A DNA stretch of 20,154 nucleotides from a virus: positions 1 to 20,154 of the IMG/VR virus record IMGVR_UViG_3300044712_000297; one strand, given 5' to 3'. The stretch's first letter is position 1. Each line of letters begins with the position of its first letter. Below are positions 3-20,033 of the stretch, piece after piece. Position numbers and translations under genes: made by a program. The notes under the pieces were generated by a model. That model was given only the letters and a program-made list of their open reading frames with translations, did no database searches and had not been told where the DNA came from.

Positions 3-215
3 ATTGATACAATAAAATCAAAGAAGATATATGTCACAAAGGATAGTATTAACCTTTTAAAAGAATATAAGGGTTATAGTTGGAAGACAACAGCAGACGG
101 AAAAATACTTGATGAACCAGTACGAGTGAATGACGATGCTTGTTGTGCTTTGAGATATGGAGTGCATACTTACATTACAAAGAAAGCAAAACGCCCTAAT
201 ATTAGACTATTATAA
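3..215 (+). CDS. terL: Terminase large subunit, C-terminal end (partial)
   Basis: This is the 3' end of a gene that starts before the window; the visible frame gives the last 70 residues. The terminase large subunit is the ATP-driven motor and nuclease that cuts phage DNA and packages it through the portal. The visible part matches the end of the nuclease (RNase H-like) domain: a lysine-rich beta strand, a 'YKGYSWKTT' strand, 'DGKILDEPV', then an acidic 'NDDACCALRYG' helix where the family usually has a D/H-x-x-D-A-x-R-Y motif carrying a metal-binding aspartate. Its position just before a portal gene supports the call. The ATPase domain lies outside the window, so catalytic competence cannot be judged. 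The portal starts 22 nt after the stop codon. Confidence 0.82.
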   Translation: MDTIKSKKIYVTKDSINLLKEYKGYSWKTTADGKILDEPVRVNDDACCALRYGVHTYITKKAKRPNIRLL

Positions 216-231
216 ATAACATAAGTATAAT
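203..231 (+). promoter_or_regulatory. Candidate promoter, leaderless start of portal gene
   Basis: TAGACT (203-208, 4 of 6 matches to TTGACA), a 17-nt spacer and a perfect TATAAT (226-231). Six nt (AAAGAT) separate the -10 box from the portal ATG at 238, so a normal initiation distance would put the first transcribed base on the A of the ATG. It overlaps the end of the terminase gene. The same geometry recurs at 9042, 10057 and 19545, which raises confidence above that for an isolated AT-rich hexamer. Confidence 0.55.
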
Positions 232-237
232 AAAGAT

Positions 238-2268
238 ATGGATTTCCTCAATAAACTTTTTAACAACACACAACAAAAAGGCATTAAGTTGCCAATTATT
301 AGTTCAATGATGAATGGCTCAAAGTATTATCTGCCTAATCAAAGAGAAGATAGTGCTTATTTTAAAGAATATAAAAACTGGGTATTTGCTTGTATCAATG
401 CACGAGCAGAAGAAGTGGCAAGTATTGAATTGAAACTTGAAAACAAAAAGACAGAAACTTATATTGAATCACACGAGGTATTAGATTTGTTGAATGATGT
501 GAACCCTAATATGACCAAATATGAGTTGTTCTTCGGTACACAAGCTCTCTTAGACCTTACAGGTAATGCTTACTGGTACTTGGCACGAGATAACGAAGGA
601 AAGGGCAAAATACGCCAAATATACCTACTCTCGCCAGATAAGGTAAACATAATCATCAATAAAGATAATCCTATTGAAGTTCTTGGGTATTCTTATGGTA
701 CAAACAAAGAGAAAGTAATGTTTGAAAAGAATCAAATCATACACTTTAAGAACTTTAATCCTAATGGAGATTATCCAAAACCTCATAAAGGAGTTGGAGT
801 AGTTGAATCTGCACTATGGGCTATTGAAACAGATAACGAAGCACGAAACTGGAACTATTCTTTCTTTAAAAACTCTGCAAGACCAGATGGAATATTGGCA
901 ACAGAACAGATACTTGGTGAAGATGAGTACCAAAGACTTAAAGAACAATGGGAACAAAATTACAGAGGTTCAAAGAACAATGGAAAACCTGCTATTCTTG
1001 AATCAGGACTTAAATGGCAAGACATATCAAAGACACAAAGAGATATGGACTTTATTGCTCAAAGAACTTTCTCACGAGATGAAATCCTTTCACTATTTAG
1101 AGTACCAAAGACAGTTGTTGGTATCACTGATGATGTGAACAGAGCAAACGCAGAAGCAAGTGATTATGTATTTGCAAGACGAACTATCAAACCTTTGATG
1201 GAACGATTTGTGACCGTATTGAATGAATATCTATTACCAGAATATGGAGCAGACCTTGAATTTGAATTTGAAAATCCAGTACCAGAAGATGTTGTAGCAA
1301 AGAATACAGTATATTCACTTGGAATAAACAAATGGCTTACACGAAATGATATTAGACGAGAAGAAGGACTTATTGAATCAGATAACGGAGATACTTTCTA
1401 TGGACCATTTTCAGAATCTCCACAAGATGCAGTAACTCAAACAAAAGCAGTAAAAGTATCAAAAGCAAATACGGTAAGTAAAACCATTGATGACTTTGTA
1501 GCTAAATTACCTAAAAAAGAGATTACATATAGAAAACTTACACAAGCACAAAAAGAGATTCATAAAGAGGTTTGGATTAAACGCTTTGATAAGAATGAAA
1601 AACAACTTATATCAGACCTTAATAAGTACTTTAAGGCACAAGAAGAAGAAGTATTAAAGAACGCCAAAGAAGAATATGCAGGATTAAAACCAAAAGAATA
1701 TAAACTTAAAGGGGTTGAAGATGTATTGTTTGATGAGAAGAAGGCAGTAGCTACTGGTATTTCACTTATCACACCACACCTTAGAAACTTCTTAAAAGAA
1801 GGAGCAGAGATGGCAGATAGCCAAACAGGAGGTGAATATAATATCAATGACCCTAAGTCTTTGAAGTTTATTCAAGATAGAGCTAAATTCTTTGCAGAAA
1901 CCATAAATGAAACTACAAGTACAGAGCTTATCAAGAAAATAAATGAAGCACTTGCTAATGATGCAGGGTTTGATGTAATTGCTCAAACTATCGGAGAGGT
2001 ATATCAACAAGCCTATGATTATAGAACAGAGAGAATTGCTCGAACAGAAGTATCAGCATCTTTAAATGAAGGAGCTATTGATGCATACAGACAAGCAGGT
2101 ATTGAAGATGTAGAATGGGTAGCAGTATTAGATGATGCGACAGCAGATATTTGCATTGATAATGACGGAGAGATCAGAAAAATAGGAGAGGAGTTCTCAT
2201 CAGGTGAAACACAACCACCAAATCATATCAATTGCCGATGCACAACAGTTGCAGTATTTAAAGACTAA
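238..2268 (+). CDS. Portal protein fused to Mu-F-like head morphogenesis domain
   Basis: The 676-residue protein has two parts. Roughly residues 1-400 look like an HK97/SPP1-type portal, the dodecameric DNA gate at one capsid vertex. Seen are an N-terminal 'NWVFACINARAEEVA' helix, 'QALLDLTGNAYWYL', a loop with 'IIHFKNFNPNG', and the stem helix segment 'FSRDEILSLFRVPKTVVG'. After a lysine-rich linker, about residues 430-676 match the phage Mu F / SPP1 gp7-type minor head domain: 'RIARTEVSASLNEGAIDAY' near residue 600 and a C-terminal D-x-C...PPNHINCRC motif near 660-668. In many phages these are two neighbouring genes. The start codon has no Shine-Dalgarno sequence; it sits 6 nt after a perfect TATAAT. 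The next gene begins 2 nt after the stop, suggesting coupling. Confidence 0.9.
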   Translation: MDFLNKLFNNTQQKGIKLPIISSMMNGSKYYLPNQREDSAYFKEYKNWVFACINARAEEVASIELKLENKKTETYIESHEVLDLLNDVNPNMTKYELFFGTQALLDLTGNAYWYLARDNEGKGKIRQIYLLSPDKVNIIINKDNPIEVLGYSYGTNKEKVMFEKNQIIHFKNFNPNGDYPKPHKGVGVVESALWAIETDNEARNWNYSFFKNSARPDGILATEQILGEDEYQRLKEQWEQNYRGSKNNGKPAILESGLKWQDISKTQRDMDFIAQRTFSRDEILSLFRVPKTVVGITDDVNRANAEASDYVFARRTIKPLMERFVTVLNEYLLPEYGADLEFEFENPVPEDVVAKNTVYSLGINKWLTRNDIRREEGLIESDNGDTFYGPFSESPQDAVTQTKAVKVSKANTVSKTIDDFVAKLPKKEITYRKLTQAQKEIHKEVWIKRFDKNEKQLISDLNKYFKAQEEEVLKNAKEEYAGLKPKEYKLKGVEDVLFDEKKAVATGISLITPHLRNFLKEGAEMADSQTGGEYNINDPKSLKFIQDRAKFFAETINETTSTELIKKINEALANDAGFDVIAQTIGEVYQQAYDYRTERIARTEVSASLNEGAIDAYRQAGIEDVEWVAVLDDATADICIDNDGEIRKIGEEFSSGETQPPNHINCRCTTVAVFKD

Positions 2269-2270
2269 TT

Positions 2271-2594
2271 ATGTTCAACATAACACCAACAACAGAATTA
2301 CAAGCACTTAAAGAGTTAGACTTGATGGATAGTAATGCTACTATGGGCTTGAATCAGCTAAAACACTACGCAGGACAGTCGTTTAACTCATTTTGGTATG
2401 GAGATATATCCCCTATTGTTAAAGTTCAACTACTAGGCAATAAGGCACTATCTGTATTTCAAGCATCTGCCCTTACACAACAGTTTATTAAAACACTAGA
2501 CCCTGAATGGAACGAACTTACAGTACCTCCACAATATGAAGTTATCTTTAATGAAGATGGAAGTGCTACAATCAACGAGATAATACCAGAATAA
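2271..2594 (+). CDS. Small conserved-type phage protein, unknown function
   Basis: A 107-residue acidic protein with no membrane segment or signal peptide. It has a central 'SFNSFWYGDISPIVKVQLLG' segment, followed by a helix that looks able to pack against others ('KALSVFQASALTQQFIKTL') and a C-terminal strand pair ending in 'YEVIFNEDGSATINEI'. From memory, similar short proteins with an 'FW' motif followed by 'LG..a...f' occur next to structural genes in other phages, but I know of no assigned role. It lies 2 nt after the portal gene and 1 nt before the first fibre gene, so it is probably translated with them. A virion accessory or fibre-attachment role is inference from position only. Confidence 0.7.
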   Translation: MFNITPTTELQALKELDLMDSNATMGLNQLKHYAGQSFNSFWYGDISPIVKVQLLGNKALSVFQASALTQQFIKTLDPEWNELTVPPQYEVIFNEDGSATINEIIPE

Positions 2595-2595
2595 A

Positions 2596-4899
2596 ATGGA
2601 TAAAAAAGAAATAAAACAACTTATTAAAAACGAGATAACTCCTTTGTTGATTGGGATTAGAAATGATCTTGATGAGTATAGAAGTAAATTTTTTTATGAG
2701 GACAGTGAAATAGCTGGTGTTTTAATTAAGGGAGAGAAAGGTGAAAATGGTGTAACACCAGTATCTGACAAAGACTATCCATCAGAAGAAACAGTATTTA
2801 ATTTTATAAAAGAAAACTTACCTAAAAGAGGGAAGGATTATTTTACTAATAGTGATATTAAAGACATTGTTCAACAAGTGTCAAAATTGATTCCTAAGCC
2901 ACAAGACGGAAAAGATGGTGTGGTTGACTATGAAGTGGTAAAAAACCTCGCTAAACCCATAATAGAGGGCAAATACAAGGAATTAAAGGGATATGTTAAG
3001 GATATGTCTGATGCTATCTTAGAAAAGATAGAAAACTCTAAAAAGCCAGAACTAACAGCAAGTCAAATTCGTAACAAATTAGAATCACTTACAGGTAAAG
3101 ATAGGCTAGATGCAAAGGCTATCAAAGGGCTTGAAAAGTTTATGTCTACATTTATAGCTACATCAGGAGGAGGAGGAGGTAGTGGAGGTTCACAAACAAC
3201 TAGCCCCGCAGGTTCTAATACTGAAATACAATTTAATGATAATAATGCTTTTGGTTCATCAGATCTATTTAAGTTTAATAAAACAGACAAAAGACTAGAA
3301 ATGGACGGCTCTGATATGAGATTTAATCTTCTAAAACTTGGAGATGAGCTTGTAGTAAATGGAACATTTGATACTGATTTAAGTGGTTGGACTTATGGAG
3401 CTGGTGTAACTTGGGTTAGTGGAAAAGCAAACATAACTGGGAATACCGACTTTTCACAAACTGTTCCAGTAACAGTAGGTGTTACATACCAGGTTGAGTT
3501 TACTATTTCAAGTTATTCAAGACCGACAACTCCTGGAACACTTAACTTTACTTTTGCAGGAGTTACTTTGGCAAGTTTTCCAGTAGACTTTGGAGTACCA
3601 GCCAATGGAACATATATACTCTATGTGACAGCATTAAACACAAACGCATTTGTCGTAGATGTGCCATCTAGTGGGCTAGTTGGATTTCAGCTTGATGATG
3701 TTTCAGTAAAAGAAGTCATCAATATTTCAAAAGGTTTAGAAATAATTACAAGTGATAATCCATTTTTAATGGGTGATTTTTCAGGAAACACACGAGGTAC
3801 TGGTTCTATTGATATGCAATTTTCTCGAACAGCTATTACACAAGTCGCATCAGGTACAGATTCTTTGGCTTTTGGATATAAAAATACAGTAAGTGGGCAA
3901 GAAGCATTTGCAGTTGGTCATACTAATACGGCAAGTGGTTATCGTTCAACCGTATTTGGATATAATAATAGTAATACAGGTACACAATGTCTTACTGTTG
4001 GGATAGGAAATACACAAGCAGGATCTAATGGTACTGTTGTAGGAGTATCGAATGTTATTTCTGGTGGAACAGGTGTTGGTTCTTCTAATAGAACTAATGG
4101 AGGAACAGTTATTGGTTCAAGTTCAATTAGTGTAACAGGAACTTCTGTGGGAAATAGTGTAGTTAATCGAATAGCATCTTCTGCAACTTTTGGAGTGAGT
4201 TCAAGTAATGTACACACAAGAAGTGGTTTTATAGGCTTGAATACAGTATCTAATGTAAAATCGTTAAGTTTGAATGGCACAACATCAGTATTTGACACAG
4301 CTTCTTTGGGAACTGAGTTAGTAACCAATGGGGACTTTACTACTAATACTACTGGTTGGACTTTGCCAACTGGTTGGACTTATGCTTCACAAAGAGTTTT
4401 TCATAGTGCCGATGGAACAGGAGCTTTGACACCGACTACACCACTTTCTATTACAGCTGGTAAAATATACAATGTTTCTTTTGGTCTGATTTTTTCAGGA
4501 GGTATCTTTGACGGTTCAGGAACACTAACTGTATCTTTGGGTGGTGTAACATCTCCTATTATTCAATGTGAATTATTACAATCAGAAACTATAACATTAC
4601 AATTCAAAGCCACAACAACTGGTAACCTAACATTTACACCAAGTAATACAGCAAGATTCTCAATAGATGCTGTTTCAGTAAAAGAAGTCTTGGGTGGGGA
4701 TATTTATGCTAATAAAAATATAGGTGTAGGTACTATGGAGGAAACAGACTTCGGAGGAGGTTCAGGAGTGTTTGCTTTACCTAACTGCAAGACAGTACCA
4801 ACAACAAATCCAGCATCAGGTTTTATCCTTTATTCAGAAGCAGGAGTATTAAAAGTACGAGATTCATCTGGTACTGTAAAGACAGTAGATTTAACATAA
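2596..4899 (+). CDS. Tail fibre / receptor-binding protein with CBM-like and YadA-head-like repeats
   Basis: 767 residues. Residues 1-185 form an anchor with a collagen-like patch ('GEKGENGVTP'), helices and the phage-fibre signature 'LTASQIRNKLESLTGKDRL'. A glycine hinge follows (GGGGGSGG, about 191-198; DNA is a GGA-type repeat). Residues about 250-373 look like a carbohydrate-binding beta-sandwich ('LVVNGTFDTDLSGWT' to 'LDDVSVKEV'). Residues about 413-555 hold repeats of the kind 'SLAFGYKNTVSGQEAFAVG', resembling the left-handed beta-roll head of YadA/Hep_Hag trimeric adhesins. Residues about 572-698 are a second sandwich of the first type ('LVTNGDFTTNTTGWT' to 'IDAVSVKEV'). A trimeric fibre that binds surface glycans is the likely role. 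The anchor is shared with the next gene. There is no enzyme motif, so depolymerase activity is not supported. Confidence 0.75.
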   Translation: MDKKEIKQLIKNEITPLLIGIRNDLDEYRSKFFYEDSEIAGVLIKGEKGENGVTPVSDKDYPSEETVFNFIKENLPKRGKDYFTNSDIKDIVQQVSKLIPKPQDGKDGVVDYEVVKNLAKPIIEGKYKELKGYVKDMSDAILEKIENSKKPELTASQIRNKLESLTGKDRLDAKAIKGLEKFMSTFIATSGGGGGSGGSQTTSPAGSNTEIQFNDNNAFGSSDLFKFNKTDKRLEMDGSDMRFNLLKLGDELVVNGTFDTDLSGWTYGAGVTWVSGKANITGNTDFSQTVPVTVGVTYQVEFTISSYSRPTTPGTLNFTFAGVTLASFPVDFGVPANGTYILYVTALNTNAFVVDVPSSGLVGFQLDDVSVKEVINISKGLEIITSDNPFLMGDFSGNTRGTGSIDMQFSRTAITQVASGTDSLAFGYKNTVSGQEAFAVGHTNTASGYRSTVFGYNNSNTGTQCLTVGIGNTQAGSNGTVVGVSNVISGGTGVGSSNRTNGGTVIGSSSISVTGTSVGNSVVNRIASSATFGVSSSNVHTRSGFIGLNTVSNVKSLSLNGTTSVFDTASLGTELVTNGDFTTNTTGWTLPTGWTYASQRVFHSADGTGALTPTTPLSITAGKIYNVSFGLIFSGGIFDGSGTLTVSLGGVTSPIIQCELLQSETITLQFKATTTGNLTFTPSNTARFSIDAVSVKEVLGGDIYANKNIGVGTMEETDFGGGSGVFALPNCKTVPTTNPASGFILYSEAGVLKVRDSSGTVKTVDLT

Positions 4900-4903
4900 T
4901 ATT

Positions 4904-8194: not shown

Positions 8195-8199
8195 AATAT

Positions 8200-8661: not shown

Positions 8662-8665
8662 ATAT

Positions 8666-9022: not shown

Positions 9023-9035
9023 ATTATTATATAAT
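9007..9035 (+). promoter_or_regulatory. Candidate promoter, leaderless start at 9042
   Basis: TTACCA (9007-9012, 4 of 6 matches), a 17-nt spacer and a perfect TATAAT (9030-9035), then exactly 6 nt (AATATT) to the ATG at 9042. The -35 box lies inside the end of the preceding gene and the -10 box in the 19-nt intergenic gap. The surrounding DNA is almost pure A/T, so a chance match is easier here than at 238. Confidence 0.45.
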
Positions 9036-9041
9036 AATATT

Positions 9042-9188
9042 ATGAAACAAATAAAAACAGAACAAATTGAAGCAGTATTACAAGTTATTTACTCAACAAA
9101 TATTCCAGCATCTCAATTTGATGCTCTCAGAAAACTATTTTCTGAATTACCAGATATTAAAGAACCAAAAGATGACCAAAAAAAGTAA
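9042..9188 (+). CDS. Small acidic/basic helical protein, unknown
   Basis: A 48-residue reading frame too short for a standard ORF cutoff. It begins 'MKQIKTEQIEAVLQVIYST' and continues 'PASQFDALRKLFSELPDI', ending in a charged tail 'KEPKDDQKK'. Support for it being real comes from its position after a 19-nt gap with TATAAT exactly 6 nt upstream, codon use like the neighbours, and a 17-nt overlap between its end and the next gene's start, typical of translational coupling in phage lysis cassettes. From memory, short proteins of the pattern 'I..vlq.i........fd.l..ll..lp' occur beside holins in other phages. Function unknown. Confidence 0.6.
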   Translation: MKQIKTEQIEAVLQVIYSTNIPASQFDALRKLFSELPDIKEPKDDQKK

Positions 9189-9384: not shown

Positions 9385-9385
9385 T

Positions 9386-9688: not shown

Positions 9689-10033
9689 ATGAAAAAATTT
9701 AATTTAGATGTAAACTATGAATTAGCAAAAGAAAATGCAGAAGGTAAAGCATATACACCTGAGGAACTTTCACAAGGTAATGCATAACTTACTAACAACT
9801 ATATTGAAACAGCTGTACTACTTACTAATAAAGATGGACTTGATTCTCAATTTAGAAGAATTTGGGTAAAGATCCAATCTAAAATTCAAACAGCACTTAA
9901 TACAAAAGATTATGTAGTTGAATTTGAACAAGGAGAATTTGATTTTATTAAAAACGCAATCCTTAATGCAAAATTCAATCCAACTATTGCAAAATATGTT
10001 GTAGCACTTGAAGATGCAATTTTGGGTGTATAA
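9689..10033 (+). pseudogene. Small structural-type phage gene interrupted by an in-frame TAA
   Basis: From the ATG at 9689 the frame encodes 32 residues ('MKKFNLDVNYELAKENAEG' to 'LSQGNA'), then TAA at 9785-9787. The same frame continues for 81 more codons ('LTNNYIETAVLLTNKDG', 'WVKIQSKIQTALNTKDY', 'VVEFEQGEFDFIKNAIL', 'YVVALEDAILGV') to TAA at 10031-10033. The downstream part has codon use like its neighbours and no ATG, GTG or TTG until its last four codons, so it could not easily start on its own. As one unit it would be 114 positions long. From memory, this size and pattern match small proteins encoded next to phage capsid genes (basic 'MKKINLD' start, then helices ending 'iakaqllea'). 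Explanations are a one-base nonsense mutation, a sequencing error, or stop-codon readthrough. Protein function is unknown. Confidence 0.65.
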
Positions 10034-10050
10034 AGAATTTACTATATAAT
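10022..10050 (+). promoter_or_regulatory. Candidate promoter, leaderless start of prohead protease
   Basis: TTGGGT (10022-10027, 3 of 6 matches), a 17-nt spacer and a perfect TATAAT (10045-10050), then 6 nt (AAGAGT) to the ATG at 10057. The segment ACTATATAATAA is nearly identical to the one before the gene at 19545 (ACTATATAATTA), and both have the -10 box at the same distance from the ATG. Confidence 0.5.
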
Positions 10051-10056
10051 AAGAGT

Positions 10057-10854
10057 ATGAATAAGACATATCTAAAAGGTTACATTAAAAAAGCACAAGA
10101 TACAGAACTCTATGAGTTTATTGCATCAACAGCGAGTGTAGATAGACAAGGAGATAGTATTGACCAATCAGGTTGGGAGCTAGATAACTATTTGAAAAAT
10201 CCAGTTATTCTATTTGCTCATAACTATTCAGAATTACCTATTGCAAAAGCAGTTGAAGTAATCAACGCAGGTTCATCTCTTATTATTAAGATTCAATTTG
10301 CATCAGAAGAAGCTAACCCGAAAGCACAACAAATTAAAAAACTTGTAGACGAAGGAATTTTAAATACTACATCAGTTGGATTTATCCAAAAGGAACGAAA
10401 TGGAAACATTATCACACGAGCAGAACTACTTGAAGTATCTATTGTACCAGTACCAGCTAATCAAGATGCACTTAGACTTGCTTATAAAGGACTTGATGCA
10501 GATATTGTAAAAGAGTTTGAAGATTATCTTGCAGTACCACAAGACAACGAAGAAGAAGATGAGGAAGTAGTAACACCAGAAGCACCAACAGAAGAAGAAA
10601 CTGTTGAGAAGGCTGGTCGTGTTATTAGTTCAAAGAATCGAAAGTTGCTTGAAAGTACGAGAGATGCCTTGAAGACATCACTCTCTGAGATAGAGAAACT
10701 CCTTGCAGAAGGGGTGGCTACGACAGAGGAAGATGTTGAAGGTAAAGGTAATCTTGTCCTAATAGACCGAACACTTATTGAAGACTTAAAGTTTATGTTA
10801 CGAAGTGATAATCGGACAAACGATAAGATTCTATCTACACTCAAAAACATCTAA
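10057..10854 (+). CDS. HK97-family prohead maturation protease with scaffold-like C-terminus
   Basis: 265 residues. The N-terminal 150 residues match the HK97/U35 prohead protease family, which cleaves the capsid protein's delta domain inside the procapsid. Seen are 'FIASTASVDRQGD', 'NPVILFAHNYSELPIAKA' with candidate catalytic His55, 'ILNTTSVGFI' with candidate Ser106, and 'AELLEVSIVPVPANQDA' with Glu126 as the likely third residue. After about residue 160 comes an acidic linker ('DNEEEDEEVVTPE') and a helical tail ('RKLLESTRDALKTSLSEIEKLL', 'LIEDLKFMLRS'), which in related proteins acts as scaffold. The ATG is 6 nt after a perfect TATAAT. It lies 23 nt downstream of the interrupted gene and 27 nt before the major capsid gene. 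Confidence 0.93.
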   Translation: MNKTYLKGYIKKAQDTELYEFIASTASVDRQGDSIDQSGWELDNYLKNPVILFAHNYSELPIAKAVEVINAGSSLIIKIQFASEEANPKAQQIKKLVDEGILNTTSVGFIQKERNGNIITRAELLEVSIVPVPANQDALRLAYKGLDADIVKEFEDYLAVPQDNEEEDEEVVTPEAPTEEETVEKAGRVISSKNRKLLESTRDALKTSLSEIEKLLAEGVATTEEDVEGKGNLVLIDRTLIEDLKFMLRSDNRTNDKILSTLKNI

Positions 10855-10872
10855 TTATTATTAGATTATAAA
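10844..10872 (+). promoter_or_regulatory. Weak candidate promoter of the major capsid gene
   Basis: AAAACA (10844-10849, 3 of 6 matches), a 17-nt spacer and TATAAA (10867-10872, 5 of 6), 9 nt before the ATG at 10882. The predicted leader would be about 3 nt. The capsid gene should be strongly expressed, so a dedicated promoter is plausible, but this site departs from the 6-nt spacing of the other candidates. Confidence 0.3.
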
Positions 10873-10881
10873 CTTATCAAA

Positions 10882-12048
10882 ATGGATAAAGTAGAAATCA
10901 CACGAGATGAGCTAACATCTTTGCTTAAAGATGTTGCTTCAACAATCGTAAAGGAAGAAGTTGATGCACAAGTTAAAGACTTTGGCACATCTATTGACCA
11001 AAAATTCGCAAAATTATCAGCAAAAGCAGAAGATATTTCAGGACTTGATGGAAAAGAAAAGTCAGCAAAATTCTTTAAAGCTCTTTACAACAAAGACTTA
11101 GGAACACTTGCTTCTTTCAAAGCTATGAATGAAACTACTGGATCAGCAGGAGCATTCCTCGTACCAGAAGAATTTACAGCAGAAGTATATCGAGTAGTAG
11201 AAGACTATGGACTAGTAGCAAAAATGGCTACTAAATTCCCAATGGGTTCTGATACACGAAATATCCCAACTGTGGCTTCATCAGTAACTGGTTCATATCC
11301 AGGAGAAGCAACAGCAGGTTCAGCATCACAACCAGTTCTAGCACAAGTACAACTTATTGCTAAAACTTGGGTAGGACTTACTCCTATGAGTAATGAACTT
11401 CTCGAAGATGCTAATGTGTCTGTTGTAAACCTTCTAGTAGAATTGTTTGCAGAAGCTATTGCAGGAGAACTTGATTCACAAGGACTTGCAGGAACAGGAT
11501 CGCCTTTCACAGGTATTCTTGGAAACGCATCTGTAAACATTGTTACAATGGGAGCTGGAAAAGACACTTACATTGAAGCAGATCTAGCGGATTACCGATC
11601 ACTTATCACACAAGTGAAACCGTGGGCATTACAAGGAGCAGGATTCATTATGCACCGAACTATTTGGGCTAATATCCAAACTCTACGAACAGGTGGAACT
11701 AACTCAGGAGATTTCTTCGGAGCAAGTACAAACCCAGTTATCGTAGGTGTACCACAAGGTTACCCAACTGCAACAGCTGGATTCCTTTGGGGTTACCCAG
11801 TTTACTTGTCAGACAAAATGCCTTCAACAGCAGTTGTTTCACAAACAGCAACTAAATTCTGTATCTTTGGTAACTTGAAACACCTTTATATGGGAGATCG
11901 AGCAAACCTCGCGGTTGCTATCTCACAAGAAGGTGTTATCAACTCAGTATCTCTTTTTGAAACTAATCAATCAGCAGTACGAGTTATCGCACGACACGCA
12001 CTTGCAGTTGGACTTCCAACAGCATTTGCAGTTCTTAAAACAGCTTAA
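10882..12048 (+). CDS. Major capsid protein (HK97 fold)
   Basis: 388 residues, a usual length for an HK97-type capsid precursor. The first 80-90 residues are charged and helical (delta domain, internal scaffold), ending near 'FKAMNETTGSAGAFLVPEEF', the family's typical boundary where maturation cleavage occurs. The fold continues with 'RVVEDYGLVAKMATKFPMGS', an E-loop/A-domain stretch 'TPMSNELLEDANVSVVNLL', 'LDSQGLAGTGSPFTGIL' and a C-terminal A-domain strand 'SAVRVIARHALAVGLPTAF'. It follows the protease and precedes a decoration-type gene. All nine arginines are encoded by CGA, and Gly, Pro, Ala and Ser codons are also strongly A-ending, consistent with selection in a highly expressed gene. 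The start has no Shine-Dalgarno sequence. Confidence 0.95.
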   Translation: MDKVEITRDELTSLLKDVASTIVKEEVDAQVKDFGTSIDQKFAKLSAKAEDISGLDGKEKSAKFFKALYNKDLGTLASFKAMNETTGSAGAFLVPEEFTAEVYRVVEDYGLVAKMATKFPMGSDTRNIPTVASSVTGSYPGEATAGSASQPVLAQVQLIAKTWVGLTPMSNELLEDANVSVVNLLVELFAEAIAGELDSQGLAGTGSPFTGILGNASVNIVTMGAGKDTYIEADLADYRSLITQVKPWALQGAGFIMHRTIWANIQTLRTGGTNSGDFFGASTNPVIVGVPQGYPTATAGFLWGYPVYLSDKMPSTAVVSQTATKFCIFGNLKHLYMGDRANLAVAISQEGVINSVSLFETNQSAVRVIARHALAVGLPTAFAVLKTA

Positions 12049-12061
12049 TTGTTTGTTTATT

Positions 12062-12093
12062 CAGGAGAGGAGGGCTTCGGCTTTCCCCTCTTG
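12062..12093 (+). terminator. UUCG-loop hairpin after the major capsid gene
   Basis: Starting 14 nt after the capsid stop, the two arms pair around a C(UUCG)G tetraloop (12075-12080), an exceptionally stable loop. The inner stem from 12069-12075 to 12080-12086 includes two G-U pairs; one A-C mismatch (12068/12087) separates an outer G-C-rich stem. No T-run follows directly, so it is not a textbook intrinsic terminator. It could be a partial terminator or a 3'-end stabiliser for the capsid mRNA. Confidence 0.6.
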
Positions 12094-12096
12094 GGT

Positions 12097-12114
12097 TAAG
12101 CAAGAGATTGCTTA
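12097..12114 (+). other. Second hairpin with GNRA-type loop before the decoration gene
   Basis: A perfect 7-bp stem TAAGCAA/TTGCTTA closes a GAGA loop (a GNRA-type tetraloop). It starts 3 nt after the UUCG hairpin and is followed by ATTATCA. The two hairpins fill most of the 89-nt gap between the capsid and decoration genes and would be part of a 5' leader or a processed 3' end. Confidence 0.5.
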
Positions 12115-12125
12115 TTATCAGAATA

Positions 12126-12139
12126 ATTGTAATTACAAT
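12126..12139. repeat. 14-bp perfect palindrome overlapping a start codon
   Basis: ATTGTAATTACAAT reads the same on both strands and its last two bases are the first two of the ATG at 12138. It could be an operator half-site pair, a weak RNA hairpin around the start, or chance in AT-rich DNA. A TATTAT hexamer (12113-12118) lies just upstream, in a plausible -10 position for a leader of about 13 nt. Confidence 0.4.
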
Positions 12140-12554: not shown

Positions 12555-12566
12555 TTTTATGTTCAT

Positions 12567-12588
12567 ACAGACCCTTTATGGGGTTTGT
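12567..12588 (+). other. Hairpin after the decoration gene
   Basis: ACAGACCC and GGGTTTGT can form an 8-bp stem, including one G-U pair, around a 6-nt loop. It lies 12 nt after the decoration gene stop and 4 nt before the next hairpin, mirroring the hairpin pair after the capsid gene. Confidence 0.5.
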
Positions 12589-12591
12589 AAT

Positions 12592-12611
12592 GAGCAGGAA
12601 ACTGCTTTTAT
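12592..12611 (+). terminator. GAAA-loop hairpin followed by a short T-run, candidate terminator
   Basis: AGCAG/CTGCT closes a GAAA tetraloop (12598-12601) and is followed by TTTAT. The stem is only 5-6 bp and the T-run only three or four, so termination would be weak or partial. It is the best intrinsic-terminator candidate in the window and separates the head genes from the neck genes. The next gene starts at 12629; a TATAAG at 12609-12614 could serve as a following -10 box. Confidence 0.5.
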
Positions 12612-12628
12612 AAGTAAAAGATAAATAT

Positions 12629-12817: not shown

Positions 12818-12819
12818 TT

Positions 12820-13413: not shown

Positions 13414-13414
13414 A

Positions 13415-13732: not shown

Positions 13733-13733
13733 A

Positions 13734-14213
13734 ATGAGCAACGGATTTACAATAGAGGTAAAAGGATTAGATGAGCTTATGCTGGTTGCAGAAAAGTACC
13801 CTAATATATCAGAAAAGCATATCAATAAGGCTATCAATCGTTCTCTTATCCGTATTCAAGATCAAGCAAAGAAGAACGCACCATCAGGGGATAGTCAACA
13901 ACTAAGGCAAAACTGGAAAATAACAATGGGTAGATTTGCAGGATCATTACAATCAGGAGCAAAGAATGGTGGATATAGTTATGGGCTTGCTATTGAGTTT
14001 GGAACAAGACCTCACTATATACCAGTTAAAAACAATCCTATGTTTCAGCTATGGGCTACAAGAAGAGGTTTGAATCCTTATGCAGTATCTAAGAGTATTA
14101 GCAAGAAGGGGACAAAAGCAAAACCTTTCTTCCAGCCATCTATTGATAGTCAAAAATCAAAGATTGATGAAGAATTTAATAAAGCGATGGATAACTTAAT
14201 GAAGGAACTATGA
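13734..14213 (+). CDS. HK97 gp10-like neck / tail-component protein
   Basis: 159 residues. It matches the HK97-gp10-like family: 'FTIEVKGLDELMLVAEKYPN', 'INKAINRSLIRIQDQAKKNAP', 'GDSQQLRQNWKI', then 'GLAIEFGTRPHYIPVKNNP' and a C-terminal 'KPFFQPSIDSQKSKIDEEFN'. The 'EFGTRPHYI' turn and 'P..FfqP' segment are characteristic. Family members sit between stopper and tail-completion genes and take part in head-tail or tail-tube assembly. The gene overlaps the next one by 4 nt (ATGA), indicating translational coupling. Confidence 0.88.
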   Translation: MSNGFTIEVKGLDELMLVAEKYPNISEKHINKAINRSLIRIQDQAKKNAPSGDSQQLRQNWKITMGRFAGSLQSGAKNGGYSYGLAIEFGTRPHYIPVKNNPMFQLWATRRGLNPYAVSKSISKKGTKAKPFFQPSIDSQKSKIDEEFNKAMDNLMKEL

Positions 14214-14638
14214 TAAGCATTTCAACAATTAGATCTAATCTAAAAACAGTAATAAGCAACCTCGTTACAAGTACAACCGTATCAGTTGTATATGACTACT
14301 TTGAACCTAATGTATCAGGCTATCCAGCTATTGTTTTTGACATTACAAACAATACAGATGATTACCTTACTAACAAAGAAAATCTATTAAAAATAACATT
14401 TAGTGCATATATTATAGTTGAGATATTTGAAAACGGTGTTGAAGATGCTACTAAACTTCTTGATACTGTTACAGATGCTTTGATTGTAGAGCTTAGAGAT
14501 GAGGACAACTTATCTTTATCAGGAGCAGTTGATTGGATTAGTCCAGTTGTCGGTCCAAGACAACAAGTGGAAACTCCACGAGGTATGGCATTTCAACAAC
14601 AACTAGATATTGTTTTGAATGTTGCAGATACAATATAA
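14210..14638 (+). CDS. Tail completion / tail terminator protein
   Basis: 142 residues. It opens with 'MISISTIRSNLKTVISNLVT', then 'YDYFEPNVSGYPAIVFDITN', 'ITFSAYIIVEIFENGVEDAT' and 'LLDTVTDALIVELRD'. This alternating strand-helix pattern with a 'GYPA' turn is typical of the gpU / SPP1 gp17-type tail terminator, a hexameric ring that caps the tail tube and meets the neck. The ATG is embedded in the stop of the gp10-like gene; AAGGAA just upstream is one of few Shine-Dalgarno-like sequences here. A 23-nt gap with promoter-like hexamers follows. Confidence 0.78.
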   Translation: MISISTIRSNLKTVISNLVTSTTVSVVYDYFEPNVSGYPAIVFDITNNTDDYLTNKENLLKITFSAYIIVEIFENGVEDATKLLDTVTDALIVELRDEDNLSLSGAVDWISPVVGPRQQVETPRGMAFQQQLDIVLNVADTI

Positions 14639-14655
14639 TTTTTAAATGATATTAT
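14627..14655 (+). promoter_or_regulatory. Candidate promoter, leaderless start at 14662
   Basis: GATACA (14627-14632, 3 of 6 matches), a 17-nt spacer and TATTAT (14650-14655, 5 of 6), then 6 nt (ATAGGT) to the ATG at 14662. A perfect TATAAT also lies at 14634-14639, overlapping the upstream stop codon. It is 22 nt from this ATG, so it could be an alternative -10 box giving a leader of about 16 nt. Confidence 0.4.
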
Positions 14656-14661
14656 ATAGGT

Positions 14662-14805
14662 ATGGAGAAAGCACAAAACAAGATGATTAAGAAAGAGGAA
14701 GTAAAACAAAAAGACTACTTCTTTCCTGATTATGGAATTACTGTATCAGCATCAACGCAAGAAGAAGCAGAACAAAAATTATCAGAAATTATAAATAAGA
14801 AATAA
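14662..14805 (+). CDS. Small phage protein before the tail tube gene
   Basis: 47 residues, missed by usual length cutoffs. The N-terminal half is lysine-rich ('EKAQNKMIKKEEVKQKD'). The second half 'YFFPDYGITVSASTQEEAEQ' follows a pattern I recall from short phage proteins placed near tail or capsid genes ('YfFP..g.tv.A.s.eEA...'). The frame is open from an ATG 6 nt after a TATTAT hexamer to a stop only 2 nt before the tail tube start, an arrangement like the coupled genes elsewhere in the window. Function unknown. Confidence 0.65.
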   Translation: MEKAQNKMIKKEEVKQKDYFFPDYGITVSASTQEEAEQKLSEIINKK

Positions 14806-14807
14806 AT

Positions 14808-15794
14808 ATGACAAAGTTTATAGGAAGACGATTCAATATCGGAGTAGGTAGAGAAACTGTACGAGGTACAGCACGACCAGTACAAAGATGGTTGCCAACA
14901 ACCGAACTTACTTTTGATGAAAAAGTAGAAATGGCAAAAGAAGAAAGTGTATTTGGTGTAATTGAAAATCAAACTGATGCAGATGTAGTAAAGACTTTTG
15001 CAGAAGGTTCAATCTCAGGATTGATTGATGATAACTCTATTGGGTATATCCTTTATGGAGCTTTGGGAACTGTTGGAGTATCAGGACCAGCGACAGGTGC
15101 GTATACACACACATTTACAGTTACACAGTCATCACAAATTCAATCACTTACACTTACAGCAAGTGAACCTAACGCTCAAACATCAGCATCACTTCTATTC
15201 CCTCTCACAGTAATAGATAGTCTTGACCTTGATTTTGAAGTTGGACAATACCCAACATACTCAGCATCATTTATGAGTAATGTATCAAGTACAACAACAG
15301 CGACAGTATCTTATGTAGCACCAGCTAACTTCCGACCACAAGATGGAGTTGTTAGAATTGCTACTACTTACGCAGGACTTGCATCAGGTACTACTTATGC
15401 AGTACGAAAAGCATCTATCTCAATCTCAAAGAATGTTGAAGATGATCATAATATTGGTTCAATCGCAGTAACAGACCGACTTAATAAACAATTTGGAGTT
15501 ACAGGTTCACTTGAAATCGTATACGATGCTCGAACAAACATTACAGAACTTCTCACAAACGCTACACGAGCAATTCAATTAGAGTTCACAAACACTAACA
15601 AGACTATTGTTGGAGGTTCAATCAACCCTAAAATTACTATAAGACTTGCAAAAGTTAAGTTTGTTGAAGTTGCACGAAATATCGGTAAAGATGACATTGT
15701 AATGCAAACAATGAACTTTGAAGCCTTCTACTCACTCGGAGATACACGAATGATCGATGTAGTTCTAGTAAATGATGTTGCATCATACGCTTAG
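14808..15794 (+). CDS. Major tail tube protein
   Basis: 328 residues. The N-terminus 'FIGRRFNIGVGRETVRGTA' and segments 'TELTFDEKVEMAKEESVFG', 'VIENQTDADVVKTFAEGSI', then paired beta strands and 'TVIDSLDLDFEVGQYPTYSA' fit a siphovirus tail tube protein of the larger type. These form stacked hexameric rings. The later part 'VRKASISISKNVEDDHNIGS' and 'KQFGVTGSLEIVYDARTN' forms further strands that end in 'QTMNFEAFYSLGDTRMIDVV', typical of this family's C-terminal strand. Arginine codons are CGA (ten) and AGA (five) only. It precedes the chaperone and tape-measure genes, the expected order. The protein could carry an added Ig-like domain given its length above 200. Confidence 0.88.
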   Translation: MTKFIGRRFNIGVGRETVRGTARPVQRWLPTTELTFDEKVEMAKEESVFGVIENQTDADVVKTFAEGSISGLIDDNSIGYILYGALGTVGVSGPATGAYTHTFTVTQSSQIQSLTLTASEPNAQTSASLLFPLTVIDSLDLDFEVGQYPTYSASFMSNVSSTTTATVSYVAPANFRPQDGVVRIATTYAGLASGTTYAVRKASISISKNVEDDHNIGSIAVTDRLNKQFGVTGSLEIVYDARTNITELLTNATRAIQLEFTNTNKTIVGGSINPKITIRLAKVKFVEVARNIGKDDIVMQTMNFEAFYSLGDTRMIDVVLVNDVASYA

Positions 15795-15806
15795 TAGTGG
15801 GATAAT
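15778..15806 (+). promoter_or_regulatory. Candidate promoter, leaderless start at 15813
   Basis: TTGCAT (15778-15783, 3 of 6 matches), a 17-nt spacer and GATAAT (15801-15806, 5 of 6), then 6 nt (AAATGT) to the ATG at 15813. The -35 box lies within the end of the tail tube gene and the -10 box in the 18-nt gap. Confidence 0.4.
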
Positions 15807-15812
15807 AAATGT

Positions 15813-16151
15813 ATGGACAGAACTACAAAAATAATTACATTACCAACAACAAAGTTAGAAGTTGAGTTTTATACATACATTACAGCTGGTGAAAAAAGAC
15901 AAATTACAGAAATTCTAACTACTGGAATGTCAGCAGATTCAAGTGGAAGCATTAAAGGAGAAATACCTTTATCTCTTGTATACAAATCAAATGATAAAGC
16001 AATCGAACTATTGATTAAGCGTATTGGAGAATTTACAACTGATGTGCTTTCAAATGTAAATAATCTGCCATCAAATGATTATGATTTTCTGCTTGAAGAA
16101 ATCAATAAAGTATCAAACAATACAGACTTTATTGAAAAAAAAACGATATAG
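15813..16151 (+). CDS. Tail assembly chaperone (gpG-like), zero-frame product
   Basis: 112 residues in the slot between tail tube and tape measure that is occupied by the tail assembly chaperone in siphoviruses (lambda gpG equivalent). Seen are 'TTKIITLPTTKLEVEFYTYI', 'TAGEKRQITEILTTGMSAD', 'AIELLIKRIGEFTTDVLSNV' and 'LPSNDYDFLLEEINKVSNNT'. Pre-tail-tube chaperones bind the tape measure and the tube subunits before tube assembly. The frame closes at TAG (16149-16151) just after a run of nine A residues (16135-16143). A second product made by -1 frameshifting here is annotated separately. The ATG follows a GATAAT by 6 nt. Confidence 0.78.
   Translation: MDRTTKIITLPTTKLEVEFYTYITAGEKRQITEILTTGMSADSSGSIKGEIPLSLVYKSNDKAIELLIKRIGEFTTDVLSNVNNLPSNDYDFLLEEINKVSNNTDFIEKKTI
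16136..16142 (+). promoter_or_regulatory. Candidate -1 ribosomal frameshift slippery site
   Basis: In the zero frame the codons read GAA AAA AAA ACG, so A-AAA-AAA is a correctly phased X-XXY-YYZ heptamer (16136-16142). A -1 slip lets both AAA tRNAs re-pair and moves reading to AAC at 16142, skipping the TAG at 16149-16151. The site lies at the 3' end of a chaperone gene, where lambda-type phages use programmed frameshifting. No clear downstream stimulatory stem was identified. Confidence 0.72.
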
Positions 16152-16360
16152 AGTACGCCTATAAAGTTCTATTAAATGGGAATAAAAGTGAACTGCCAAA
16201 AGAATTAACTATATCTATGGTATGTGAAAAAATGTGCTGGACTTATCAGGAATTTGAAAATCAACCTGATTGGTTTATACAACTTCTTTTATTCAAATGG
16301 TCACTAGATAACGAACACCAAAATAAAAATGCAAGACAAAATTCTCCAAATAGTCATTAA
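16142..16360 (+). CDS. Tail assembly chaperone extension (gpT-like), -1 frame
   Basis: The -1 frame is open from 16142 to TAA at 16358-16360 and encodes 72 residues: 'NDIEYAYKVLLNGNKSELP', 'KELTISMVCEKMCWTYQEF', 'NQPDWFIQLLLFKWSLDNEH'. Joined to the first 110 residues of the zero-frame protein this gives a product of about 182 residues, analogous to lambda gpG-gpT. The pattern 'C.km.WTyqef.nqp.wfi' looks like the C-terminal domain of such chaperones. The frame overlaps the tape measure start by 32 nt and fills what would be a 177-nt empty gap. It has no start codon at its beginning; an internal ATG exists but would omit the first third. Confidence 0.75.
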   Translation, partial: NDIEYAYKVLLNGNKSELPKELTISMVCEKMCWTYQEFENQPDWFIQLLLFKWSLDNEHQNKNARQNSPNSH

Positions 16361-18113
16361 GGCAAAAAATGAAGCAGAGCAAACTTTGAAAGGACTTAAT
16401 CGTACTCTTAAAGAAAACGAACAGTCATTTAAAAGTATGTCGCTTGTTGGTACAGCAGGTCTTGCAGGTATTACAGCAGTTGTTGCGACTTCGGTAAAGG
16501 CATTTGGTGAATCAGAGAGAAGTCAAAGACAACTTGAACACGCAATTATAGGTGTTTCAAAAGGAACAAAAGAACAAGTCGAACAAGTCAATGCACTTAC
16601 ATCAGCCCTTCAAAAAAAGGCTGGTATCGATGGAGATAGTTTAAATGCAGGAGTTGCTCAACTTTCTACTTTTGGACTTCAATCAGAATCAGTTGTTAAA
16701 CTTACAAAATCTCTTGCAGATCTAACTGTAAACCAAGATGGAGTAAATGCTGGTGCAGATAGTTACATATCAAGTGCAAATATAATGGCAAAAGCATTGA
16801 GAGGTGAGTTCGGTATGCTTTCAAAGATGGGTATTCGCTTTACAGAACATCAACAAGAACTTATTAAAACAGGTACAGAAGCACAAAAAGTTGCTACTAT
16901 CCAAGAAGGATTTGCTCAGAACTTACGAGAAACAACTGATACTGTTGGTGGGTATGATGTAATGATTGGTCAACTCAGACAATCATTTGGTGAAATACAG
17001 GAATCAATAGGAAAAGGATTACAACCAGTTATAAAACAACTATCAGATGTTGTTGTGCCTTTTATTCAGAATATAGGTGATTGGGTTGCAAAAAATCCAC
17101 AGTTAACTACAACTATAATACTTGTAACGACTGCTATGTTTGGTTTTTTGACTGTTGTGGGACTATTAGGAATAGCTATACCAGCTTTGACAGCAGGTCT
17201 TGCAGTTTTGTTTAGTCCAGTTACCTTGATTACTGTTGCAATAATGGCTCTTGTAGGAGTTGGTTATTTGCTCTATAAGAATTGGGATTATCTAAAAAAT
17301 CAAGCAATAAACATTTTTGAAGTTATCGGTGCAACTATTATGGGTTGGGTAGGTTATGTAACAGGATTGTTTAGCTCTCTAATGTCAGGTATAAGCTCTA
17401 TTGCTTCAAGTATCTGGGAAACAATTAAGACTATATTTTGGACTTCAATAAACTTTATAGTTGGACTTTTTGCTTCTTTGATGGATTTAATTTTTCCTAA
17501 TTGGCAAGGAAATCTTGGTATGCTTTATGAAACAGCTGTTGGAATATGGACATCAATTACAACTTTCTTTACTGGTGTATTTGATACTTTATTCACAACA
17601 ATAAAAACAACACTTGATCTAATAAAAGCAGTTTGGAGTGCTATTTGGACAGAAGTAAAAAGTGTATTCACAACTATATGGGAATCTATTGCAAGCGTAT
17701 TTGATACTGTTATATCGGGTATTAAATCAGGTATGGAATCACTTGTTAAACCAATTCAAAAAGTTATAGATCTTGCCACAAAAGCATTGTCCCTTGCAGG
17801 AGGTGCAGTTAAGTCAGTTGGTGGTGGTATATCAAACACCGTAAAATCAATTATTGCCAGAGGTTCTTCAATTACAGGTAAAGCAGTTGGAGGAGGTGTA
17901 CAAACAGGACAATCATATATGGTAGGAGAGAAAGGACCAGAATTGTTCACACCATCTTCTAATGGATCTATTACACCTAATTATAAACTTGCAGGAGCAG
18001 GAGGTGTAAACCTTACTATCAATATGAATGGTGGAACATACCTTGATGACAATGTTGCAGAAATGATTGGAGATCGTCTAGTACAAGTCTTTAAACGCAC
18101 AGCAAGAATATAA
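16329..18113 (+). CDS. Tail tape measure protein
   Basis: 594 residues. A helical N-terminus 'LQIVIKAKNEAEQTLKGLN' leads to the tape-measure domain ('VATSVKAFGESERSQRQLEH', 'ALTSALQKKAGIDGDSLNAG', 'LADLTVNQDG', 'MAKALRGEFGMLSKMGIRFT'). Hydrophobic segments around residues 257-315 and tryptophan-rich helices after 320 ('IWTSITTFFTGVF', 'VWSAIWTEVKSVFTTIWESI') follow. The typical 'GEKGPELFTP' motif is at about 533-542. The protein sets tail length and enters the host envelope with the DNA. A rule of about 1.5 angstroms per residue would give a tail near 90 nm. No lysozyme or peptidase domain is visible. The start overlaps the chaperone extension by 32 nt; the next gene begins 1 nt after the stop. 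Confidence 0.92.
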   Translation: MQDKILQIVIKAKNEAEQTLKGLNRTLKENEQSFKSMSLVGTAGLAGITAVVATSVKAFGESERSQRQLEHAIIGVSKGTKEQVEQVNALTSALQKKAGIDGDSLNAGVAQLSTFGLQSESVVKLTKSLADLTVNQDGVNAGADSYISSANIMAKALRGEFGMLSKMGIRFTEHQQELIKTGTEAQKVATIQEGFAQNLRETTDTVGGYDVMIGQLRQSFGEIQESIGKGLQPVIKQLSDVVVPFIQNIGDWVAKNPQLTTTIILVTTAMFGFLTVVGLLGIAIPALTAGLAVLFSPVTLITVAIMALVGVGYLLYKNWDYLKNQAINIFEVIGATIMGWVGYVTGLFSSLMSGISSIASSIWETIKTIFWTSINFIVGLFASLMDLIFPNWQGNLGMLYETAVGIWTSITTFFTGVFDTLFTTIKTTLDLIKAVWSAIWTEVKSVFTTIWESIASVFDTVISGIKSGMESLVKPIQKVIDLATKALSLAGGAVKSVGGGISNTVKSIIARGSSITGKAVGGGVQTGQSYMVGEKGPELFTPSSNGSITPNYKLAGAGGVNLTINMNGGTYLDDNVAEMIGDRLVQVFKRTARI

Positions 18114-18114
18114 T

Positions 18115-19527
18115 ATGAGTACAGTCATTACAATAGATGGTGTAGATAAAAGCTCTCTTGTAAACTGGAAGTCTGTTCGCAGGGAGCAAGTATTAAGTCG
18201 TGAACCCGACAAGCTATCTTTTCTTATTAAAAAACACAATGGTCAAACATACAAACCAGTCGTTGGTGACGAGGTTGTTTTGACAGTTGGTGCTATAAAA
18301 GAATTTGGTGGGTATATCATTGAACTTCAAGAAGATGTTGAAGCGAGAGTTGAATACATCAAGGTAATCTGCAAGGATTACACACACGAACTTGATAGGC
18401 AACTTGTATCAAAGACTTACCAGAACCAAAGTGTGAATGATATTATCGCAGATCTTATTGGTACATTTGCATCAGGTATAACAGACACGAATGTTGATTG
18501 CCCAACAGTTATTGAATCAGTAACATTTAACTACCTGCCTATATCAAGATGTCTAGAACGACTTACAGATATTGTTGAGGGCTATGAGTGGTACATAGAC
18601 TATGACAAGGACATACACTTTTTCTTATCAGAATCAGAAGCAAGTACATTTAATCTTACAGACACATCAGGAAACTATGTATATAATTCCCTATCCTTGC
18701 GACAAGATACACACCAACTTAGAAACGAGGTAATTGTGCGAGGAGGACTTTTGACATCAGAAACATTGAGAACAGAGTATCTTTCAGGAGATGCTACCAA
18801 AACTGTATTTCCTCTTGCTACAAAATTTGCAAATATACCAGTAGTTAAAATATCATCAGTTGTTCAAACAGTTGGTATTGAAAACATAGACATTACAGGA
18901 TTTGATTGTTATTGGAACTACAATGAAAAGTCTTTGAAATTTACTGTTGCACCTGCATCAGGTACTTCAAATATTGAAGTGATAGAATATCCACAATACC
19001 CTCTTATCCTTCAAAAAAGAAACGAGGATAGTATCGCTTTATATGGTTTATTTCAAACAGTGATCGTGGATAAGAACATACGAGATTTAGAAACAGCAGG
19101 ACTTAGAGCAGATGTAGAATTACTTAAATATTCAGAGCCAGAAAAAACAGCAGAGTTTACAACTTATACAGGTGGGCTTATGACTGGCCAGACTATAAAT
19201 ATTCAATCTGATATACGAGGAATCAATCAAGATTATAAAATACAAAGTATTCGTTCAACTTTAAAAACACCAGATACAGACGAGATGGTACACGAGGTAA
19301 ACTGTGTGACAGCAGAGGATATTGGAATCAATGATATTCTCGCAAGGCTTCTTGTAAAAAACCCTAGTGATCAAATTGATATTCAGGCAGATGAGTTTGT
19401 GGAACGAATAAGACAATTTACAGAAGTAATGGCAATCGGAGAATCATCTCCAACAGTATCAACAAGTGTTGCACCTTATTATTGGGGAGCATCAACAAGT
19501 GTATGGGGTTTTGCAACTTGGTCATAA
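18115..19527 (+). CDS. Tail tip / hub protein (gp27-like baseplate hub family)
   Basis: 470 residues. The first 100 residues resemble the hub barrel domains of phage tail-tip proteins (Mu gp44 / T4 gp27-like): 'MSTVITIDGVDKSSLVNWKS', 'LSFLIKKHNGQTYKPVVGDE', 'LTVGAIKEFGGYIIELQED'. Next is 'KVICKDYTHELDRQLVSKTY' and 'QNQSVNDIIADLIGTF', the usual second hub segment, and 'YNSLSLRQDTHQLRNEVIVRG'-like strands in the middle. The C-terminal 80 residues form a helix ('FVERIRQFTEVMAIGES') ending in an aromatic tail. It starts 1 nt after the tape measure. No separate distal tail protein gene lies between them, so this protein, or a domain in it, may provide the ring that anchors fibres. No hydrolase motif seen. 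Confidence 0.8.
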   Translation: MSTVITIDGVDKSSLVNWKSVRREQVLSREPDKLSFLIKKHNGQTYKPVVGDEVVLTVGAIKEFGGYIIELQEDVEARVEYIKVICKDYTHELDRQLVSKTYQNQSVNDIIADLIGTFASGITDTNVDCPTVIESVTFNYLPISRCLERLTDIVEGYEWYIDYDKDIHFFLSESEASTFNLTDTSGNYVYNSLSLRQDTHQLRNEVIVRGGLLTSETLRTEYLSGDATKTVFPLATKFANIPVVKISSVVQTVGIENIDITGFDCYWNYNEKSLKFTVAPASGTSNIEVIEYPQYPLILQKRNEDSIALYGLFQTVIVDKNIRDLETAGLRADVELLKYSEPEKTAEFTTYTGGLMTGQTINIQSDIRGINQDYKIQSIRSTLKTPDTDEMVHEVNCVTAEDIGINDILARLLVKNPSDQIDIQADEFVERIRQFTEVMAIGESSPTVSTSVAPYYWGASTSVWGFATWS

Positions 19528-19538
19528 AACTATATAAT
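19511..19538 (+). promoter_or_regulatory. Candidate promoter, leaderless start at 19545
   Basis: TTGCAA (19511-19516, 4 of 6 matches), a 16-nt spacer and a perfect TATAAT (19533-19538), then 6 nt (TAAGTT) to the ATG at 19545. The segment ACTATATAATTA resembles the one before the protease gene at 10057. It would start a new unit for distal tail genes. Confidence 0.55.
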
Positions 19539-19544
19539 TAAGTT

Positions 19545-20033
19545 ATGAATAAAACTATTAAAGAAAATTCAGGAATAAAAGGAAAGTTTAGAGTAATTAA
19601 AACCTGTGCTTTAACTGGCAAAGTTTTAGAAGAAACACCTTTTTATGAAAATATAATAGTGAATGGAACTGATACAGGACTTAATCTTATACTTGATAGG
19701 TTGAATGGGAAAAACACTTATAGTTTAAACATTAATCATTTGGATATTGGAGATGATAATACTACACCAACTGTATCAGATACAGCACTTGGAAACGCAG
19801 TGGCCAGAAGTGCAAAAGTGACAGGTGTTATTTCAGGAAGTGATTTAACTTTGAGATTCTTTTTTGCAAGTGCAGATTTGGCAAATGGAACTTATTATGA
19901 GGTTGGTACTTTCATTGATGGAACAGCCAGTGTTGATACAGGAAAAATGTTTAATCACGCTTTGTTCGGTAGTGCATATACAAAGGGTACAAACGAAAAT
20001 ACAACGATTGAGGTAGTTTTTAATATTAGTTAA
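19545..20033 (+). CDS. Distal tail / fibre-type structural protein
   Basis: 162 residues, beta-rich. Features: 'KGKFRVIKTCALTGKVLEET' , 'PFYENIIVNGTDTGLNLILD', then 'LNINHLDIGDDNTTPTVSDT', 'ALGNAVARSAKVTGV' and a late strand 'TYYEVGTFIDG'. The pattern 'NiIVn.G....l...l......l..l.iG.....p...dt.L' is one I know from phage structural proteins encoded near tail hub and fibre genes. It follows the hub gene after a 17-nt gap and precedes another fibre-type gene by 9 nt. A fibre-connecting or tail-tip role is likely; no family name is assigned with confidence. Confidence 0.68.
   Translation: MNKTIKENSGIKGKFRVIKTCALTGKVLEETPFYENIIVNGTDTGLNLILDRLNGKNTYSLNINHLDIGDDNTTPTVSDTALGNAVARSAKVTGVISGSDLTLRFFFASADLANGTYYEVGTFIDGTASVDTGKMFNHALFGSAYTKGTNENTTIEVVFNIS

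Follow-up and report, generated by a model that had tools for sequence, protein, structure and literature searches.

Leaderless genes with a TA signal are established in Actinobacteria, Deinococcus-Thermus and some Firmicutes, and TA signals about 10 bp 5′ of starts have been interpreted as leaderless genes (Zheng 2011, PMC3160421). In Deinococcus, a -10 motif 6–7 bp before ORFs was shown by mutation to act as a promoter (Zhong 2025, PMC12340547). The phage locus described here resembles the TA-led genes of Actinobacteria and Deinococcus-Thermus in having a -10-type hexamer about 6–7 nt before the start codon (PMC3160421, PMC12340547), and in having several box variants in which T, A and T at positions 1, 2 and 6 are strongest. 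The box form is TANNNT in those bacteria and the extended -10 TGnTATAAT here. There, leaderless genes are a property of the host genome and stand beside Shine-Dalgarno (SD) genes, whereas here they would belong to a phage lineage without SD. The genomes of Lactococcus and other low-GC Firmicutes otherwise use SD, whereas the phage clade does not. As in our phages, TATAAT in these Firmicutes is preceded by a TG peak, which is thought to replace the -35 region (Zheng 2011, PMC3160421; PMC10986495). Among phages, the PY54 cI and cro mRNAs have their 5′ end on the AUG, as determined by RACE, and the lambda cI mRNA also lacks a leader (PMC4488713). A phage mRNA beginning at the AUG is also predicted from the sequence here. 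The lambda and PY54 cases are single regulatory genes in SD-using hosts, whereas multiple structural-gene units in one phage are concerned here. A limited search of the open-access literature turned up no phage lineage in which several structural units are headed by leaderless promoters. The new element, as predicted, is the use of leaderless promoters to head structural operons in an SD-free phage lineage.

The window is the whole of the IMG/VR virus record IMGVR_UViG_3300044712_000297 (20,154 bases), which comes from an uncultivated phage. Its G+C content is 35.6%, and the main genes all lie on the + strand. Judged by protein matches, the window is the structural module of a tailed phage (Table 1). 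An overlapping contig, L011, shows the terminase gene just upstream. Neither the window nor its near relatives contain tRNAs.

Table 1. Annotated genes and putative promoter boxes of the window
Feature	Position	Strand	Remarks
-10 box TATAAT, N6 to ATG 238	226–231	+	Full TATAAT-N6-ATG 226–240
Portal protein, C-terminal Mu F-like domain	238–2268	+	PF04860 3e-77, PF04233 1e-15; PHROG portal; predicted head of transcription unit
Fibre-like protein	start 2596	+	
Fibre-like protein	start 4904	+	
-10 box TATAAT, N6 to ATG 9042	9030–9035	+	Full TATAAT-N6-ATG 9030–9044
48-aa unknown protein	9042–9188	+	Ortholog in L005 38% identical; predicted head of transcription unit
-10 box TATAAT, N6 to ATG 10057	10045–10050	+	Full TATAAT-N6-ATG 10045–10059
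Prohead serine protease	10057–10854	+	PF04586 5e-6; PHROG head maturation protease 7e-21
Major capsid protein	10882–12048	+	PHROG major head protein 3e-47
Head-tail connector	start 12820	+	
Head-tail connector	start 13734	+	
Extended -10 box TGaTATTAT, N6 to ATG 14662	14647–14655	+	
47-aa unknown protein, directly 5′ of major tail gene	14662–14805	+	Putative head of transcription unit
Major tail protein	start 14808	+	
Extended -10 box TGgGATAAT, N6 to ATG 15813	15798–15806	+	
112-aa protein, probable tail assembly chaperone (G-like)	15813–16151	+	Assigned from its place between major tail and tape measure genes and its conserved -1 frame extension; predicted head of transcription unit
Tape measure	start 16329	+	
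Hub-like tail protein	start 18115	+	
-10 box TATAAT, N6 to ATG 19545	19533–19538	+	Full TATAAT-N6-ATG 19533–19547
162-aa tail-associated protein	19545–20033	+	PHROG 5417 1e-10; PHROG 4176 tail fiber 5e-8; predicted head of transcription unit

The sequence-only reading had placed TATAAT exactly 6 nt (N6) before the ATG at 238, 9042, 10057 and 19545, and one-mismatch boxes at the same spacing before 14662 (TATTAT at 14650) and 15813 (GATAAT at 15801). All of these coordinates proved correct. All six sites have T directly before the ATG and follow the previous stop after gaps of 22, 19, 23, 23, 18 and 17 nt, within the 17–23 nt first noted. For 10057, the gap was counted from 10033, where the preceding gene ends when intact. 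That gene (9689–10033) is shortened by a stop codon, while L011, which is otherwise identical, has a sense codon by a one-base difference and a 114-aa frame; the stop is either a strain variant or a sequencing error. A fifth TATAAT-N6-ATG (14634–14648) was rejected as a gene start, as it opens a frame of only 14 codons and overlaps the stop of the preceding gene.

The claim that this spacing is not due to chance was borne out. Over the 24 starts of the window, perfect TATAAT occurs four times at N6 and zero times or once at each other spacing. Dinucleotide shuffles gave a mean of 0.056 at N6, and none of 2000 reached 4, either at N6 or at any of the 50 spacings from 0 to 49. With at least 5/6 matches, the window has 6 boxes at N6 against 0.58 in shuffles, and 0/2000 shuffles reached 6. 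The total number of TATAAT hexamers was 27 in the window and 26 in shuffles, so the N6 signal is an effect of position and not of composition.

Relatives were retrieved by their capsid, portal, hub and major tail proteins, and the box was never used as a query. For each ORF, the longest frame was taken and its first ATG called as the start. The clade set comprised 35 loci around the window with 556 starts after removal of near-duplicates. A positional peak in related phages had been expected by the sequence-only reading; the related IMG/VR contigs of the clade show a sharp one at N6 and the SD-using loci show none, which supports the predicted leaderless starts. Among clade starts with gaps of 12–120 nt, 36/221 have a hexamer with at least 5/6 matches at N6, compared with 1.9 ± 1.3 (maximum 6) in shuffles. 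Other spacings average 2.1, with two cases at N5 and five at N7. The N6 hexamer is weaker at short-gap starts (10/200), where some of the ten are AT-rich chance matches, and it occurs at 5/69 starts after gaps above 120 nt. With gap length as a proxy for unit borders, N6 boxes are concentrated at the heads of transcription units (36/221 versus 10/200). In a wider set of SD-poor loci (59 loci, 834 unique starts), perfect TATAAT was found 21 times at N6 and 0–5 times at each other spacing, against one case at N6 in 54 SD-using loci (641 starts). Remote capsid relatives use SD (327/914 starts versus 122 shuffled); their N6 hexamer occurs at 9/914 starts, not above some other spacings.

The boxes carry further hallmarks of promoters. 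TGn stands directly 5′ of the hexamer at 26/43 clade N6 sites versus 21/514 other starts (p = 8e-21; this and the following clade p-values are optimistic because sites across relatives share ancestry). Before similar hexamers elsewhere, TGn was found in 45/510 cases. TG precedes 19/24 imperfect and 7/19 perfect N6 boxes (p = 0.011), the compensation that would be expected of extended -10 promoters. The window shows the same pattern: both imperfect boxes have TG (TGaTATTAT, TGgGATAAT) and the four perfect boxes do not. A pyrimidine occupies -1 at 41/43 N6 sites versus 164/249 (p = 2e-5). The triplet that follows TGnTAnAAT-N6 is ATG in 21 cases and the next commonest in 6; GTG is not among the twelve triplets listed. 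The weak -35 boxes of the first reading are present as described (3–4 of 6 matches, spacing 16–17), but chance alone gives as many matches when the best of five spacings is taken. Similarity to TTGACA at the 43 clade sites averaged 3.09 matches versus 2.90 ± 0.11 in shuffles, and 30/500 shuffles reached 3.09. A generic scan of the window for -35/-10 pairs returned 57 sites, fewer than in shuffles (73.5). On these counts, the auxiliary element is the extended -10 TGn, not a -35 box.

The N6 layout is kept at the same structural genes in relatives spanning 32% to 62% G+C, including those with 55–62% G+C (L103, L101 and L104). The proteins of box-keeping orthologs are between about 80% and about 30% identical. 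The box is found at the protease orthologs of L005, L006, L015, L016, L150 and L107, and at the orthologs of the last gene (19545) in L005, L006, L093, L098, L101, L103, L104, L105 and L153. The small gene before the major tail gene has it in L005, L157, L151, L150, L096, L099, L103, L153, L104, L107 and L155, and similar small genes in L016 and L097 keep it too. In L005, the orthologs of genes 9042 and 15813 have TGtTATAAT-N6-ATG and a perfect TATAAT at N6, respectively, and the portal ortholog keeps TATAAT-N6-ATG despite an upstream gap of 453 nt; the portal orthologs of L103 and L107 have the N6 box with one mismatch. The box is retained while gap length and flanks vary; with gaps that span 15 to 453 nt in this set, its position tracks the start codon and not the previous stop. 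Some orthologs have no box or have it at another spacing, such as N12 at the last gene of L157 and N7 in L006, which would result in leaders of 1–6 nt.

SD-like tetramers precede 46/556 clade starts versus 50.7 in shuffles, that is, there is no SD signal, so the predicted leaderless heads and the internal genes would both be translated without SD. Most internal genes begin -4 to +5 nt from the stop of the gene before, a spacing that fits coupling or reinitiation. Structural genes without a box (capsid gene 10882 and genes after gaps of 0–5 nt) must, on this layout, depend on upstream promoters. The capsid gene has a 27-nt gap before its start with neither N6 box nor SD, and is probably transcribed from the protease promoter; the protease gene would thus head a unit that probably includes it. 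The N6 starts had been described as those of a late module. The boxes do lie in the late module, but whole records also have them elsewhere: G006 has one just upstream of the terminase gene and another further upstream, and G009 has four in the first 13 kb, apart from its tail genes. The boxes thus characterise the genome and are not confined to the late module. Not all members show the layout, with only one case each in G007 and G010.

A strong hairpin lies directly 5′ of the connector-gene box in several relatives (L153, L107, L099). This order would fit a terminator placed ahead of a new leaderless start, a reading that is suggestive only, because a simple terminator scan of the window was not above shuffles. 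Before the connector gene of L097 (2436–2495), L101 (2275–2335) and L104 (2123–2183), the outer stem of a strong hairpin includes the -10-like box itself (TCGTTGT...ACAATGA) about 8–12 nt from the ATG; an attenuator or a promoter-terminator overlap is possible. Stable hairpins were also found between the capsid and next genes of the window, at 12049–12137 (z -3.9) and 12555–12628 (z -5.3), with a similar one in L006. They may serve either as a terminator or in mRNA-end protection. In the region 16131–16360 of the window, gene 15813 has an A-rich run, GAAAAAAAAACG, immediately before its stop. The -1 frame is open for a 74-residue extension (EKMxWTYQEY..QP.WFI) that is conserved in L005, L006, L157 and L150, an arrangement that resembles the programmed -1 frameshift of tail assembly chaperones (G/GT).

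The observed box position and its enrichment, the promoter hallmarks, the conservation and the absence of SD are best explained by extended -10 sigma-70 promoters whose transcripts start on the A of the ATG and give leaderless mRNAs at unit heads. We consider this explanation very probable. The boxes would be -10 elements of sigma-70-type promoters of the host, of the extended -10 class (TGnTATAAT), with TG dispensable where the hexamer is perfect. A hexamer that ends at -7 puts the A of the ATG at +1, the standard sigma-70 start distance. As the box lies at -12 to -7 relative to this A, RNA polymerase is predicted to start on it, with the pyrimidine at -1. The transcript from each box would then have no 5′ leader, and the ribosome would initiate at the 5′-terminal AUG without an SD sequence. 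Each N6 promoter would head one short transcription unit, whose further genes, with starts a few nt from the preceding stop, probably rely on coupling or reinitiation for translation.

The same hexamers could instead be an AT-rich context for translation initiation, either unstructured or bound by S1, of the kind put forward for SD-poor phyla. This is very unlikely in our view. The clade lacks SD, the remaining starts of the window are AT-rich too, and an AT-rich bias 5′ of starts may reflect S1 sites and not Pribnow boxes (Nakagawa 2017, PMC5397173). But a general context would hardly take the form of one hexamer at one spacing with TGn in front, found also in GC-rich relatives, and it would mark short-gap genes as well, whereas the signal is strongest after gaps of at least 12 nt. 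Highly improbable is the alternative that the boxes are promoters which start a few nt off the A of the ATG, giving very short leaders or a true start codon further downstream. Start points on real promoters do scatter by 1–2 nt, and a few relatives have N7, N8 or N12, but the peak at N6 is far sharper than its neighbours (36 versus 2 and 5). The pyrimidine at -1 followed by a purine, the A of the ATG, is what a start point is expected to show, and the N-terminal residues from the annotated ATG are conserved, for example MNK in the protease orthologs. Chance occurrence of TATAAT in AT-rich intergenic gaps, to which the unremarkable total in the window would point, has almost no probability left: no window shuffle reached the observed count, the clade shuffles reached 6 at most against 36, and the box is conserved at orthologs up to 62% G+C. 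The shuffle and ortholog tests refute it.

The sequence gives few pointers to the host of these predicted leaderless phages. The nearest named phages are remote (Thermoanaerobacterium THSA-485A, hub 27%; Geobacillus GBK2, portal 29%; an Oceanotoga phage, capsid 25%). A plasmid search returned only a Paenibacillus plasmid (25%), and a capsid search of genome contigs returned two MAGs (about 25%). A link to Nitrobacter vulgaris, from whose assembly L120 (hub 27%) comes, was rejected as too remote for host assignment. Searches run without a positive control found no hub relatives in 297 genomes of the phylum of G005, an Acidobacteria MAG, or in 296 genomes of the phylum of G001, a Bacteroidales MAG. 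TGnTAnnnT-N5Y-ATG is not enriched in one Bacteroidales MAG (14 versus 24 control matches). G005, the source of L014, has 52 matches versus 19 in the reversed control, which suggests that its genome may have some leaderless genes. As a guess, the host may belong to an SD-poor lineage such as Patescibacteria; a limited open-access search of the literature on leaderless expression in Patescibacteria or Saccharibacteria returned nothing relevant. In record G002, L164 and L165 have a replication-relaxation protein, a type IV coupling-protein-like ATPase, a PstI-type restriction enzyme and a methylase beside the phage structural genes, and this relative is possibly a phage-plasmid.

TGnTATAAT-N6-ATG offers a rule, readable from sequence, for promoters and correct starts in uncultivated SD-less phages. 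Leaderless expression in phages would be extended from repressor genes to the virion-building programme. The layout suggests that translation of leaderless mRNA is a main route in the hosts, and host assignment becomes testable, with the same N6 peak expected in the host genome. We speculate, with about even confidence, that the whole siphophage-like lineage and by implication its hosts (32–64% G+C) may have abandoned SD, with leaderless extended -10 promoters as the standard opening of a unit, structural genes included.
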